From Boletus sp. NGJ (Eukaryota > Basidiomycota > Agaricomycetes > Boletales > Boletaceae), in contig JAGTXK010000090.1 of NCBI GenBank assembly GCA_019096195.1, positions 222,625 through 286,624 on the forward strand: DNA of 64,000 bases, given 5' to 3'. Under the pieces are notes generated by a model that was not told the origin of the DNA, searched no databases, and worked only from the letters and a program-made list of their open reading frames with translations. The position numbers and the translations under genes were made by a program. Positions 7,935 to 17,778 of the stretch are shown here, in pieces. Each line of letters begins with the position of its first letter. Within the stretch, counting starts at the first letter, position 1.

Positions 7935-7959
7935 AATTACATCTCGATATATCCTGAGT
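7935..7959 (-). other. T-DNA-border-like repeat, left end of the island
   Basis: On the minus strand the sequence reads CAGGATATAT, then CGAGA, then TGTAATT (7,956 down to 7,935). This is the layout of the Agrobacterium 25-bp T-DNA border: CAGGATATAT, five variable bases, TGTAA. The three bases on the nick side are ACT instead of the usual TGG or TGA. Similarity to the copy at 17,757 continues outward for about 12 bp (TTCGCAAAAGCG against TTCGCGAAAGCG). The two copies are in inverted orientation. An alternative reading is a terminal inverted repeat of an unknown mobile element. Confidence 0.7.
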
Positions 7960-8198
7960 AATAGTGAAGTATTTTGTATTTTCAAAAGTTTAAGTGATGA
8001 ATTTTTTTTGTTAAAGAACAACAAATTCATTCGGCAATATCGGTTCTGGAATGACTTCATATACAATTTACAAGAGTGCCGAAGCGATTTAGTACAAAAT
8101 AGCCGCCAATGGGAGTGCTGAACCCCTCAAAAAACAAACGAGACGATATTCGATATACATGGAAAACGACGAATTTGCCGACCGGCCTTTCTCATCAA

Positions 8199-9585
8199 TC
8201 AATCTGAGTCGAGAGTTAGAAAGACGTGGATAATTCTGAGGAAACTCCCAGCTTCGTCAGAGTGAATGGTTGAGTACCAGCCATGTTCGGTCCCGGCATT
8301 GTACTCCTGGCCAACGTCCGCAAAGGCGAGGGCTTCAAGTTGCTCAACTGGAAGCTCGCTGATGATCCAATCGAACAGTTTGATGTTGTGGGTGATGTTG
8401 CCCCGCCTCTCCCTAATAACCCTCATCGGCCCTTCGGCCCACGCCTTAGGCTCACCATCGATCGTAAAGTTGTACTTGATACCGCGATCCTTATAGTCGT
8501 AAGAGCGGCAGACTCCTGCGATGGCGACCTTGGGGTACTGCTGGCGCACTTTGCGGATAAGGATCCTGAGGGCGTAGTCCTGCATGAACTGCGCGATGTC
8601 TGCTTTCTCGGCGACTTCTCCGTAGGGAGTGACGACGCGAGTGGGCTCGGAGTCGGGCACAATGTAGTTCGTGCATCCTGCAAGAGGGAGGGAGATGCTC
8701 ACGATGCGGAGCTGTGCCTCGAAGAAGGACTGACTGAACCAAAGGCCACTGCTCGATGAGAGCCTTATGGTTGCATGAGTCGGCCTCAACCTGTGCGAGC
8801 CGAGGGAGTGTCCCCATGCTGACGACGACCATCAGCGCGATATTGCTCCTCCAAGCCTGATCCGGCTGATATTGCTCGACTGCTGCGATCAACTCCTGTG
8901 CGCTGGAGAACGAGTATGCGTAGAGTTCGATGACACAGTTCTTATAGGCGAAGGGAAGGTGGCTAAGGAGGGCGATAGCGGGTGCCGCATCCTCGTTATG
9001 GCAGTCGAGGAAGATGGTGACGTTGGGGTTGCACTGGATGAAGAACGCGATGTACTCATCCATCTTCATGATGGTTTCCGAAGTAACCTGGAACTTTGGA
9101 CTGAGTCTGTCTCCGTCAACTTCACGCACGATAATGGGTTCTCCCTTGATCTCATCGTAGGTGAGTTGCTCCCACTGAATAGGCTCGTCGCGGAAGATGG
9201 TACGGGTGGTCTTGAAATCGTGAGCTGTAATGAGCGCGTCTTGCAAACGCACGACGTCGACTTCGATGGAGTTAAGGAATTTCAAAACGTTGTACCCAGC
9301 TAGGAGGGTGCCTTCAGACGCGCGTATAGCGTTGTTTGGGAAAGAGCGGTGGCCGATAATCTGCTTCTGTCCCTTGGGCGTCCAAGAGGAAAGCAGGTTG
9401 GGCATGGAGTGACGGGCCGTCACCTTGGGTTGGGTTATGCCCGCCGGAAAGTTCCAGTTGCACACATTGTTGTGCCACGCAGTCTCGGTGGGGGCAATGC
9501 TGTCCGGGTGACCTATGAGATCGGAGTGGCACCGATTGTACATGTTGAGCAGGAACGCTGCAGGGGATCAAGTGGTGGTCGTCAT
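8199..9585 (-). pseudogene. agrocinopine-synthase-like GDPD-fold protein, nearly intact
   Basis: The reading frame starts at ATG 9,585 (MTTTT) and ends at 8,199, about 453 codons. It shows the glycerophosphodiester phosphodiesterase signature: GHRSFPNN (His about residue 79), IEVDVV (Glu about 108, Asp about 110) and ITAHDF (His about 122), followed by TIM-barrel-like blocks such as VTIFLDCH. Agrocinopine synthase of T-DNAs belongs to this fold and is of similar length; that assignment is my inference from context. Defects: a TGA at codon 6, and a frame change near 8,700-8,750. The latter is either a single-base frameshift or a 25-nt GTGAGC...TTGCAG intron-like stretch, which is very short for an intron. 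The gene points outward to the border at 7,935 and retains CpGs, unlike flanking repeats. Confidence 0.6.
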
Positions 9586-10640
9586 GGTTCTGTGCAGTCG
9601 ATCAGCATAGGCCAAAAGCTAAATCACAAAGACGCACCGATAAGCTTACTTCGAATAAATTTGAAGAGATTTGGTGGCTTAGGTGCTCGTGCTCTTCGGG
9701 GTTAGTGCTGGTGAAGAGTCTAGGTAAGTGAGGTGTGCTTACTTGAGGTGGGTCGATTCGTTGGTGACTGGGGAGCAGGAACGAGAATGGGCGGTCTTTT
9801 GTAGGCACAGGACAAAGGGGCACGTGTGATTTGGGCTTGGGCTGCCATTAGCAGCTGATGAGGCATCCAGCAAAACGGAAGGCCGAAGCGTTGGCGAAAA
9901 TCACGCAATTCGCTTTGGGTGTAGCTGACTGGTCACCTATCTTCTCACCATCTCATTGGAGGATAAGTGGTCAGATGCTCTTATCGTGGTGAGAGGCATG
10001 CAAACCGCGAGGGAAAGGTGAGGTTTGGGGAGCAACTGGCTGATGGGAGGTGCACTGTTTGGGCAGGTGGGGAGCAAATGTTTGGGTGGTGACTTGGTGG
10101 CGTTGTCAGCTGAGCAGGAGCGTGGGCTATCGATGAACATCAGCTGAGAATCCCATCGATATTCACAATGGTTCAGACACGCTCACGGACGTTTTGGGTG
10201 GGATTAGAAAGATTCATTCCAATAATGGACCAGGGGCGATCTAACGGCCTTTCTCAAGAACCCATGCGGTTTGTATTCTCGTCTATGGGAAATGGACCGA
10301 CCTCCTTTGGGCAGCCGACAAGCGGCCGATAGCCAGCACTATCCCGACTTTCAATTTTACCAGGCCACAAATCTGCTGTTTTGGCGCTGAAAAGTCGTCT
10401 TAAAGCTGGGCACTCCTCCAGTCAGGAACAGTACATCCGTCATCTACTGGAGTGGGGAATTAAGCAAGAGAGCGTGCCAAATTTAGATCGTTCCGAGGGA
10501 CGGGGCCGTTCACACGCGCATTCAACCGGTTATGGCAGTGACAAGTGGCGTTAAGGTCTCAATAGATTGCAGCATCAATCTTCCGTCAACTGCACGTGAA
10601 CGGCTTGTTCAGATTTGCTGCTTCTTGTCTTGTGGTGTGT
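9586..10640 (-). promoter_or_regulatory. upstream region shared with the gene at 15,822
   Basis: Read on the minus strand, two blocks match the region before the gene at 15,822: about 10,510-10,610 (block with GTTGACGGAAG and AATCTATTGAGA) and about 9,940-10,155 (block with CTCCTGCTCAGCTGAC, ACCCAAACATTT and CATCTGACCAC). Weaker similarity continues down to the start codon, including a TATA-like ACAAAAGACC near 9,800 and a common MTTTT start. About 360 bp at 10,160-10,500 is present only here. This implies that both opine-like genes were built on the same promoter. Confidence 0.6.
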
Positions 10641-10793
10641 CAGCTGAGTGACGGGCTCCAGGGCTTCTCAGTCAAAACGAGGGGGCTCTTCGAATTCAAG
10701 CAATTGCTCAGGCCCAAGAGCTTTTTATTTAAAGAGTGATCTGGTTGGAATTTTACGTATACGACAATAAAAATGAAAACTTGGAGCGAGCGG

Positions 10794-16015: not shown

Positions 16016-16605
16016 CAGTGGCTCAAAAAAGTGTCCCAATGTTTGGCTATTTTGCAAAGACTTGACATTTGCAAAAGAACCAAAAGGTATTAGCTCTAAC
16101 CCTTGCTGGGCCATTGATAGCCCTAATCCTTGCCCTGAAGATGGGCCCTTAGTCATGTGAGTTGGTTGTCATGGTACTGAGTTATAGCCATATTAAAAGG
16201 ATATGTCATTGGGACACTTATTTGACCCTGATATTATCAACTATCATTTAGTAACTAACATGAGGTTCTGATGGATGCTGTGCTTCAACCCTGTCTGATT
16301 ATGTCACTTACATAACTCCAAATGGTATAAAGAGCAGAGATACCATTCAGCCAACCCTACTGTCAGTTACTAAATGATAGTTGATAATATCAGGGTCAAA
16401 TAAGTGTCCCAATGACATATCCTTTTAATATGGCTATAACTCAGTACCATGACAACCAACTCACATGACTAAGGGCCCATCTTCAGGGCAAGGATTAGGG
16501 CTATCAATGGCCCAGCAAGGGTTAGAGCTAATACCTTTTGGTTCTTTTGCAAATGTCAAGTCTTTGCAAAATAGCCAAACATTGGGACACTTTTTTGAGC
16601 CACTG
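16016..16605. mobile_element. Tc1-B-derived fold-back element inserted in the opine-like gene
   Basis: Starts with CAGTGGCTC after TA (16,014-16,015) and ends with GAGCCACTG before TA. It has the 5' repeat and leader of Tc1-B up to about 16,360 (including the TATAAAGAGCAGAG stretch), then an exact inverted copy of its own first part in place of a transposase. The arms (16,002-16,256 and 16,365-16,619, 255 bp each) are identical, and they include 14 bp of the host gene outside the element, which a normal cut-and-paste insertion cannot produce. Confidence 0.85.
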
Positions 16606-16619
16606 TACATGGATTGGTC

Positions 16620-16728
16620 AAAAAAAAAAAAAAAAAAAAAAAAAAAAAAAAAAAAAAAAAAAAAAAAAAAAAAAAAAAAAAAAAAAAAAAAAAAAAAAAA
16701 AAAAAAAAAAAAAAAAAAAAAAAAAAAA
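16620..16728 (+). repeat. 109-nt poly(A) tract
   Basis: An uninterrupted run of 109 A residues between the outer end of the fold-back repeat and a second copy of the target sequence (CAATCCATGTA, 16,730-16,740). All lysine-rich or phenylalanine-rich open frames across it are artefacts of the homopolymer. It could be a real junction product or an assembly fault at a hairpin. Confidence 0.95.
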
Positions 16729-17753
16729 TCAATCCATGTACACTTGGTACCATCTCTTCAACGTCTGCGAATCTGGCGACTTCTCCCTCACCCAATGCTG
16801 CACACTCGTTAAAATGTTTGACACTCCCTACAGTAACTATCTTCGCTACAGCGGCTTCCCCACCATGGGTTCTTTTGTGGTGGAGCTTTACCATCTCATG
16901 CCCACCACCAAAGACACCAAAGACGCTGGCAGGGTTGTTCGCTCTTTCCTCATGTATCTTAACCGTCTTGCTGCTTGGTCCTTTCATGTCTTCCCTTGGC
17001 ACCTTGGCAAGGACTTGACCTACGTCCCCAATGTGACCGTTGTTGCATCTCTCCAAGACCTTTCTCGCCACGTTACTGTCAAACCTGGCTTGAAGGCCAA
17101 GCTCACATGGAAAGCCCTCGACATTTCGGTCATCGCCCGCCTTGCGGCGAATGAGAACGAGAAACTCATCGTTGAGTTTATGCAGGTTTGTCTGTCCCTC
17201 ATCGTCATTCGCCATCATCACTGATGTCTCACAAGGCTTGCCCCTTCACTGTCCTTCAAGACCACACCGTGGTTTCGGGTGAATCCATGTATGCCTGGGT
17301 TCCACTCACCTCCACTGCCCCCGTCCAAGTCAAAGAGCGTCAGTGTGACGCTCCCATTGGCTGCATTCACTACTCCCAAGGCACTGGGAACAAGATGATT
17401 ATCCAGTATGGAGAGGTCACTGAGGACATCGAAATGCCTGTTCTCGGTGAAGTCGAGGCTCAGTATGCCCCACAACTCAAGCAAGTCAGGCAGGCTGTCC
17501 TCACTAACACCTTCGCTGCTGTAAAGAGGAACATCCTGATCAAGGTCGAGATCGTCCCCTATGGAGCTTAAGTACAGCGGGATATGTGTCGATTTTTCTT
17601 AATAGCCCCTCAATATGTCGTTGATAGCTTAATGATTTGAATTTTTGTACTTGTATTTGAGAAATATGATGTCGCCTTGCCCCATGAAGCTCAGTCTACT
17701 TGCTCAAATAATATTATTTTTCATCGCGATCAAATACTTTGGAAATGAGAAAT

Positions 17754-17778
17754 GAACAGGATATATTGAAATGTAATC
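17754..17778 (+). other. T-DNA-border-like repeat, right end of the island
   Basis: Reads CAGGATATAT, then TGAAA, then TGTAATC at 17,757-17,778, preceded by TGAA. It differs from the left copy (7,935) at three transition sites only within 22 bp, and both are followed outward by TTCGC(A/G)AAAGCG. It lies 183 bp after the stop codon of the opine-synthase-like gene, where T-DNA right borders usually sit. About 35 bp further the sequence enters Tc1-B copy 3. Confidence 0.7.

Follow-up and report, generated by a model that had tools for sequence, protein, structure and literature searches.

A T-DNA-like island with two opine synthase genes in a bolete chromosome

Overall organization of the island

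The window, a stretch of 64 000 nucleotides from Boletus sp. NGJ, contains a T-DNA-like island (positions 7923–17790) consisting of two head-to-head arms in a fungal chromosome. In agreement with the original prediction, which was made from the sequence alone, it combines T-DNA-type opine synthase genes (two in number), border-core ends and a rhizobial insertion sequence (IS). Its features are listed below in window coordinates; C28, C34, C97, C101 and C102 denote five other contig regions with related islands and C103 denotes the island of the window.

7923–7956, minus strand: left border-type end, CAGGATATATCGAGATGTAATTTTCGCAAAAGCG, with 16 of 17 border-core letters
8199–9567, minus strand: GDPD-type gene resembling agrocinopine synthase, split over two frames that switch between about 8830 and 8730; a stop immediately precedes the open frame
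9933–10710: distal upstream block, common to the cucumopine arm and other islands; 19 genome matches (C101, C97, C28, C102, C34, C103)
10794–11369, minus strand: opine-dehydrogenase-like gene, N-terminal fragment (Met at 11315); paralogues on C97, C102 and C28
11703–11758: perfect palindrome with 28-nt arms and no spacer; head-to-head meeting point of both arms
11895–12939, plus strand: IS481-family element (11900–12934) with CTAG on both sides (11895–11898 and 12936–12939); decayed transposase frame 12157–12858
13102–13446, minus strand: ORF X (114 aa, including a hydrophobic stretch); further copies on C101 (two), C102 and C34, and a weak one on C28
14399–14821, plus strand: ORF Y (140 aa); further copies on C101 (two) and on C102
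15241–15533, plus strand: the shared upstream block again, now in inverted orientation, 5' of the cucumopine gene
15823–17571, plus strand: cucumopine-synthase gene; coding parts 15823–16015, about 16740–17185 and 17236–17571, interrupted by an insert
16016–16605: inverted-repeat transposon insert at TA; copies of 94–98% on C28
16608–16728: short inverted flank copy, then a 109-base run of A (16620–16728), 3' of the transposon insert in the cucumopine gene
17757–17790, plus strand: right border-type end, CAGGATATATTGAAATGTAATCTTCGCGAAAGCG, with 17 of 17 border-core letters

The predicted retention of CpG was borne out: the observed/expected ratio is 0.88 at 7923–11730, 0.70 in the IS and 0.63 at 12937–17790, compared with 0.01–0.41 in 2-kb bins beyond the island. 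The flanks had been described as fungal transposons; a Tc1-type DDE_3 piece is present at 18120–18410 and the other flanking transposons were identified by eye. Every gene of the island is broken, including both opine synthase genes. ORFs X and Y could be assigned to no family in Pfam, NCBIfam or PADLOC, and neither has a plasmid match. No Rfam matches were obtained within 6000–20000, and no plast or hormone genes were recognized within the window.

The opine synthase genes

The first piece of the GDPD-type gene matches Rhizobiaceae plasmids only (132 records), at best with 32.9% identity over 87% of its length (E = 2e-26), and the second piece is 21% identical to agrocinopine synthase (acs) of pTiCA74_95 (E = 3e-5), such that likeness to acs extends over most of the protein. 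The Pfam GDPD profile does not reach its threshold with the fungal protein, and an NCBIfam AvrBs2 match is weak and far below the cut-off. A search of 5.8 billion proteins recovered just two relatives of the gene, J3R82DRAFT_10552 of Butyriboletus roseoflavus (89%) and a plasmid protein of Agrobacterium fabrum (29%). The GDPD-type branch is long in the tree and its placement is unsure.

The cucumopine gene is likewise supported by a match at 49.4% (E = 1e-43). One piece of the protein scores above the cut-off of PF18631 (27.9 versus 27 bits) and the first piece just below it (25.3); the PF18631 helical bundle and the conserved C-terminal half are both present, as in cucumopine-type enzymes. 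Relatives in the PDB are 9uwb, 9uwa, 9ns6, 9k0a and 3x27. A 50-nt GT..AG intron lies at 17186–17235, and its removal restores an ungapped alignment to the bacterial proteins. Fungal-type introns had been proposed for at least two genes; this one is confirmed, and those of X and Y were placed by eye.

The third opine synthase originally proposed, a dehydrogenase, is supported weakly and as a truncated N-terminal piece (28% over residues 3–141, E = 6e-7): only the N-terminal part of the Rossmann plus octopine dehydrogenase C-terminal architecture is present, and no C-terminal part was found in 7001–18500. In the protein database at E ≤ 0.001, with the query padded with X to admit full-length relatives, 0 of 92 dehydrogenase candidates qualified. 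The two main proteins belong to opine families rather than to unrelated ones, and no border-free syntenic homologue was seen among fungal protein records.

Phylogenetic analysis places the cucumopine gene within a clade of Agrobacterium T-DNA and plant cellular T-DNA (cT-DNA) genes (support 100/100); the bolete genes may be nested in the other T-DNA-type genes or sister to them (AU p = 0.055). The cucumopine genes of two contigs, META_P0031 (81.8 kb) and META_P0037 (8.8 kb), group with Mycena, and Mycena metata has an intact cucumopine protein. The original prediction had also considered transfer from fungus to bacterium. Cucumopine genes do occur in several fungi, at least the bolete ones with an intron, as would be expected if the opine genes had arisen in fungi and had then been taken up by Agrobacterium. 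We regard this origin as very unlikely, however, since the AU test rejects a tree in which all sampled fungi form a single clade (p = 1.5e-14) and bacterial sequences both surround the fungal ones and make up the deep branches.

In B. roseoflavus the GDPD-type and cucumopine genes carry consecutive tags (10552 and 10553) and have the same length of contig, and the island is therefore not an artefact of the present assembly. The inverted flank copy and A-run at 16608–16728 resemble a local assembly or sequencing flaw, but contamination or misassembly is scarcely credible for the island, given that both genes are found in the independent Butyriboletus assembly and that the island has transposons and CpG decay in common with the fungal genome.

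Border-type ends

The sequence CAGGATATATYGANATGTAATYTTCGCRAAAGCG occurs at 7923–7956 (minus strand) and 17757–17790 (plus strand), with 0.00 occurrences expected in shuffles. The border core CAGGATATATTGNNNTGTAA, allowing up to one mismatch, has two matches in the window (0.01 expected) and occurs in four places across the 32.8-Mb genome, each of them the end of a related island; the reversed pattern, used as a control for the genome scan, gave five matches at up to two mismatches. None of 20 000 random 200-nt stretches attained 16 of 17 border letters. The end motif agrees with real Ti borders beside acs at 21 of 24 (locus L069) and 19 of 22 (locus L039) positions. The full 25-base border consensus has no match in the window at up to three mismatches because the ends depart from it at bases 1–3 and at the final bases. 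Around the C28, C102 and C34 islands no border motif could be detected (best ≤18 of 27, within the shuffled range).

A 27-base motif is the sole sequence common to the ends of the two arms in the window. Between five ends, 19–25 of its bases are kept, while the 120 bases upstream keep 26–58% and the 60 bases downstream 11–45%. Conservation at the ends starts with the C of CAGG, which is the nick position; the sequence upstream is homologous as well, and homology continues unevenly beyond the ends.

Transferred T-DNA has direct-repeat borders that are cut at the nick, with about three bases remaining at the right border and up to 22 at the left. The island had been described as bounded by borders: the core letters support this, but the two borders form inverted rather than direct repeats (34 bp, 88%), each on the same strand as its opine gene, and they lack standard right-border processing. 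A plain border-to-border T-DNA was rejected on these grounds. The ends also count against a T-DNA reading in general: right borders, if they are such, should retain about three bases after transfer, and the five ends compared keep the motif and some bases beyond it.

Inverted ends of this kind would suit a fungal DNA transposon, bounded by terminal inverted repeats of 34 bp, that had picked up opine genes and moves between fungi, the likeness to borders being due to chance. Close copies in Cytidiella melzeri, a member of another order, apparently with the same intron read through, would be in keeping with such movement. Nevertheless, we consider this explanation improbable. No transposase of its own was seen and, by eye, no target-site duplication at the island ends, for which reason a terminal-inverted-repeat element was rejected; the IS481 and Tc1 pieces are not part of these ends, and the homology past the ends is uneven. 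In C101 the same border motif sits inside the array, the random stretches argue against chance, and the rhizobial IS elements would be left unexplained.

Insertion sequences and related islands

The predicted bacterial insertion sequence belongs to the IS481 family, with a transposase 69.5% identical to that of Rhizobium; the match to NCBIfam transpos_IS481 has an E of 9e-60 yet lies below the cut-off of that model. Its CTAG flanks and the existence of filled and empty sites identify it as an insertion: CTAG stands to the left of both Rhizobium IS copies read, one of which also has it on the right, and the element is missing from all five sister copies with a readable site, with CTAG intact in two of them. 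Just two near-full-length bacterial integrase cores (rve_3) were detected in the 32.8-Mb genome, those of IS481 in the window and of an IS3 element on C28, both within islands. The elements resemble rhizobial IS481 (ISRel2-like) and IS3 families in transposase likeness (69.5%, and 84–86% among the matches listed) and, for IS481, in CTAG context; they differ in their location in a fungal chromosome and in the broken IS481 transposase.

The island is not a single event in this genome, since relatives of it occur in the five other contig regions. The two-arm layout is found in C103 and C102 and probably in C34. A 320-aa ORF and a 251-aa ORF beside other island copies have no Pfam match, and the former has no plasmid match. 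A GDPD-like ORF on C28 is 24–27% identical to the acs family and likewise lacks a plasmid match.

The copies could all descend from one T-DNA that was acquired long ago and then copied and rearranged within the fungus, with both bacterial IS elements arriving later or being lost from the other copies. Introns, the upstream block, a truncated dehydrogenase (also on C97) and the two-arm layout are common to copies, and duplication would account for this simply; the likeness between C103 and C97 outside CpG is 89%. We consider this possible but rather doubtful, as it requires IS481 either to have jumped within a fungal nucleus or to have undergone five precise excisions. Furthermore, CpG is retained in C103 (0.88) and in C28 (0.70) although the two are 19.5% different outside CpG; C97 is closer to C103 (10.8% different) but its CpG is gone (0.25), a pattern that fits divergence before arrival if decay is independent of genome position. 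The absence of IS481 from the sister copies, one of which nevertheless shares the cucumopine-gene intron, suggests that T-DNA arrived repeatedly, from a rhizobial donor in which it already bore fungal-type introns.

The searches for such a donor revealed neither a vir-type nor a donor plasmid that has X, Y and a fungal intron. A scan of genome contigs with the cucumopine alignment gave 14 loci, none of which matches X, Y, IS481, the dehydrogenase or acs; when four plasmid loci were included (E ≤ 0.01), all 18 still lacked a match to either ORF, to the IS481 element or to the dehydrogenase, and acs was matched in pTiCA74_95 only. Among 394 Neorhizobium-family genomes, five matched the Butyriboletus acs query, at 25–30%, with no relative closer than about 30%.

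Comparison with known T-DNA

Plant cT-DNA has grouped opine genes, incomplete inverted-repeat arrays, decay and insertions of several ages (PMC5606197, PMC12568777). The bolete island shares with the cT-DNA of Nicotiana, Camellia and Arachis its grouped Agrobacterium-type opine genes, incomplete inverted-repeat arrays, decay and several ages. It differs in its fungal host, the inverted border cores that are kept, the opine-gene intron, the bacterial IS inside, the genes X and Y of no known family, and an upstream block common to different opine genes. With the T-DNA of pRi2659, pTiCA74_95 and the pTi of A. vitis NCPPB 3554 it has in common the cucumopine synthase (cus) and acs genes near a border and the border-core letters. 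By contrast, the acs-adjacent border is on the opposite strand in the plasmids (L039, L069) and on the same strand here, cus of pRi2659 (L050) points away from its border, acs is only 33% alike, and no recognized plast or hormone genes accompany the genes in the window.

Single T-DNA-like genes of opine or plast type have been noted in Nectria, Aspergillus, Laccaria and Melampsora and attributed to Agrobacterium-like donors of unknown identity (PMC5606197); these are protein matches without borders, whereas the genes here are grouped and have borders. The same 2017 review holds bona fide cT-DNA to be known only in plants, advises that fungi be searched and regards grouping as an argument for T-DNA transfer (PMC5606197). 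Our literature search, with preprints and most subscription journals outside its scope, found no report of border-bounded T-DNA in a fungus.

Origin and biological implications

The locus contains two T-DNA-type genes (acs-like, 8199–9567; cus, 15823–17571) between ends with border sequence, and we conclude that the island is probably a decayed natural cT-DNA in an agaricomycete genome, derived from rhizobial transfer with its arms head to head. In this view, a rhizobial bacterium equipped with a DNA transfer system like that of Agrobacterium would have delivered T-DNA into hyphae, where two related T-DNA arms may have integrated head to head with the opine synthase genes adjoining the border ends. 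The fungus would then have made opines that fed the bacterium: the cucumopine-type opine would be the Pictet–Spengler product of histidine and 2-oxoglutarate and the agrocinopine-type opine a sugar phosphodiester. The other islands, all now broken relics, may have resulted from further transfers or later copying. A more specific scenario, which we advance tentatively, is that a rhizobial lineage with a fungus-adapted T-DNA (spliceosomal introns and fungal-type upstream regions) transformed mushroom hyphae repeatedly for opines; the islands would then have arrived at several different times, and the IS elements would be marks of time spent in the bacterium.

Agrobacterium transforms fungi in the laboratory. 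The island, in which the genes are grouped and accompanied by border cores and a rhizobial IS, opens the natural transformation of fungi by bacteria to direct testing. If the bacterial DNA already contained the intron, there would be bacteria with T-DNA tailored to fungi, and feeding on opines would reach beyond plant galls into the mycosphere. If the reading of a fungus-adapted T-DNA is true, the islands would represent a mycosphere counterpart of crown gall.

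Island organization

CpG is kept across 7923-17790 of the window (G000:C103:222625-286624; genome of 32.8 Mb in 141 contigs), at 0.63-0.88 compared with 0.01-0.41 in the 2 kb bins outside, which bears out the predicted CpG-retaining segment. The island is read as a pair of units that meet head to head in a perfect palindrome.

Features of the island (window coordinates) and of a sister island on contig C28
Within 7923-17790, (-): GDPD-type gene resembling agrocinopine synthase (acs)
Within 7923-17790, (-): dehydrogenase fragment, C-terminal part absent
11703-11758: perfect palindrome, read as the head-to-head junction of two units
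Within 7923-17790: IS481 element bounded by two CTAG words
13102-13446: ORF X, of no known family
14399-14821: ORF Y, of no known family
Within 7923-17790, (+): cucumopine synthase gene
C28, about 42.7-46 kb (loci L023/L042): sister island that keeps CpG, with an IS3-family element and a GDPD-like ORF

ORFs X and Y have relatives in none of the protein and family libraries searched; within the genome, X recurs on contigs C101, C102, C34 and weakly C28, and Y on C101 and C102. Window 16002-16728 holds an inverted-repeat insert inside the cucumopine gene, together with an inverted flank copy and 109 A that are perhaps an assembly flaw.

Opine synthase genes

Three opine synthase-like genes had been predicted, and the GDPD and cucumopine types are upheld. 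The GDPD-type piece matches Ti/Ri plasmid acs with 32.9% identity over 87% (E = 2e-26); of the 132 plasmid records matched, 109 bear the name Agrobacterium and 21 the name Rhizobium. A search of 5.8 billion proteins, which can miss remoter kin because it relies on common short words, returned two relatives, one from Butyriboletus roseoflavus (J3R82DRAFT_10552, 89%) and one encoded on a plasmid of Agrobacterium fabrum (29%). The fungal pair forms a long branch of unsure placement in the 11-row acs tree.

The cucumopine gene has 123 protein matches at E<=0.001, of which the best 120 were described. The matches listed include two from Butyriboletus (73 and 84%), other fungi (Cytidiella, Mycena, Amanita and one yeast), several plants, Agrobacterium and many other bacteria. 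In a 54-row tree, a 30-row clade (100/100) takes in the bolete genes, all Agrobacterium rows and the plants Stylosanthes, Gypsophila and Saponaria; a 37-row tree, which leaves out the frame-shifted Cytidiella row, gives the same grouping (18 rows, 100/100). On the latter tree a single clade of all sampled fungi is rejected (p = 1.5e-14), and fungi therefore acquired cucumopine-type genes on more than one occasion; the test does not separate a nested from a sister position of the boletes relative to the remaining T-DNA-type clade (p = 0.055). Relatives of solved structure carry the names Pictet-Spenglerase or cucumopine synthase, which fits a product made from histidine and 2-oxoglutarate.

Of the three, the dehydrogenase is the weak one: the C-terminal part is missing, no protein was found at E<=0.001 in the protein database search and its best plasmid match adjoins siderophore genes, not T-DNA genes.

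Border-type ends

Letters 4-15 and 19-23 of the T-DNA border make up the border core, which is intact at the right end of the island and differs by one letter at the left. Genome-wide it occurs at ten places with <=2 mismatches (five for a reversed-pattern control), four of them with 0 or 1: both island ends and two on C101, each at the end of a related unit. A fifth, decayed end (contig C97:455863-455889) scores 21/27 against a shuffled maximum of 19. The adjoining 251-residue ORF, of no Pfam family, is possibly another opine gene. Pairwise, the five ends retain 19-25 of 27 motif letters and the adjoining sequence far fewer, as expected if the site is constrained. Thirteen natural borders from bacterial loci have the same core, and the A. 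vitis border beside acs shares 21/24 letters with the island motif. The geometry counts against a T-DNA border reading: the ends are inverted and unprocessed, and they share the strand of the opine gene. The border-to-border structure of the original prediction thus stands for the cores, and not for the arrangement, with inverted, unprocessed ends and two head-to-head units. Even so, the best reading, and probably the correct one, is that this mushroom carries a border-bearing relic of T-DNA; the literature searched contained no earlier report of such a relic.

T-DNA-like stretches also occur on two contigs of Neorhizobium sp. SHOUNA12A. L062:645-4290 is a 3.6 kb segment bounded by two border-like repeats; it contains a divergent cucumopine gene and encodes a 448-residue predicted protein for which neither a Pfam family nor a plasmid match was found. 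In L077:5485-7850, two borders spaced 200 bases apart come after an acs-like ORF (25%). In locus L075 (G049) a GDPD-like gene adjoins a border-like repeat (border at 3004, minus strand) that continues into telomere-like CCCTAA repeats.

Sister islands and insertion sequences

Gene or shared-block matches lie on C101, C97, C28, C102 and C34. C101 carries two cucumopine units with border ends pointing inwards; the layout resembles head-to-head on C102 and C34 and tandem on C28. The C28 GDPD-like ORF is 25% identical to acs (E = 3e-8), and its IS3-family element is 84-86% identical to Sinorhizobium, Rhizobium, Bradyrhizobium, Aminobacter and Ancylobacter sequences among the matches listed. Many bacterial IS share the integrase core rve_3, and searching the whole genome with it yielded six matches at E<=0.001. 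Three of them exceed the cut-off, and only two are near full length: this IS3 and the island's IS481. The predicted bacterial insertion sequence is confirmed. IS481 is flanked on both sides by CTAG, present on the left in both Rhizobium copies read and on the right in one.

Five sister copies have the IS481 site without the element. One of these, C101B, has a 45-nucleotide counterpart of the 50-nucleotide cucumopine intron of C103 at the same place; if IS481 moved solely in bacteria, the C103 unit would therefore have been in a bacterium with its intron already present. Alternatively, IS481 may have transposed inside a fungal nucleus or been lost from the other copies. Divergence points the same way as the bacterial passage, assuming similar decay genome-wide: C103 and C28 both keep CpG and differ by 19.5% outside CpG, whereas C97, which has lost CpG, differs from C103 by 10.8%. 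A single transfer followed by copying inside the fungus is the main rival and seems rather unlikely; a fungus-adapted T-DNA arriving repeatedly from rhizobia, the bolder reading, has positive support and is a real possibility, though somewhat short of even.

Age and fate

Neither opine synthase gene is intact in the island. Butyriboletus has the same two under consecutive tags (10552 and 10553), and arrival may therefore predate its split from Boletus sp. NGJ. Cytidiella melzeri, of another order, has a match in which what looks like this intron is read through, which suggests horizontal movement or a common donor. Cucumopine-type genes of Mycena metata, C. melzeri, Amanita brunnescens and the yeast Monosporozyma servazzii (protein records P0011, P0062, P0109, P0118 and P0089) fall in separate regions of the tree, so that several additional transfers are likely.
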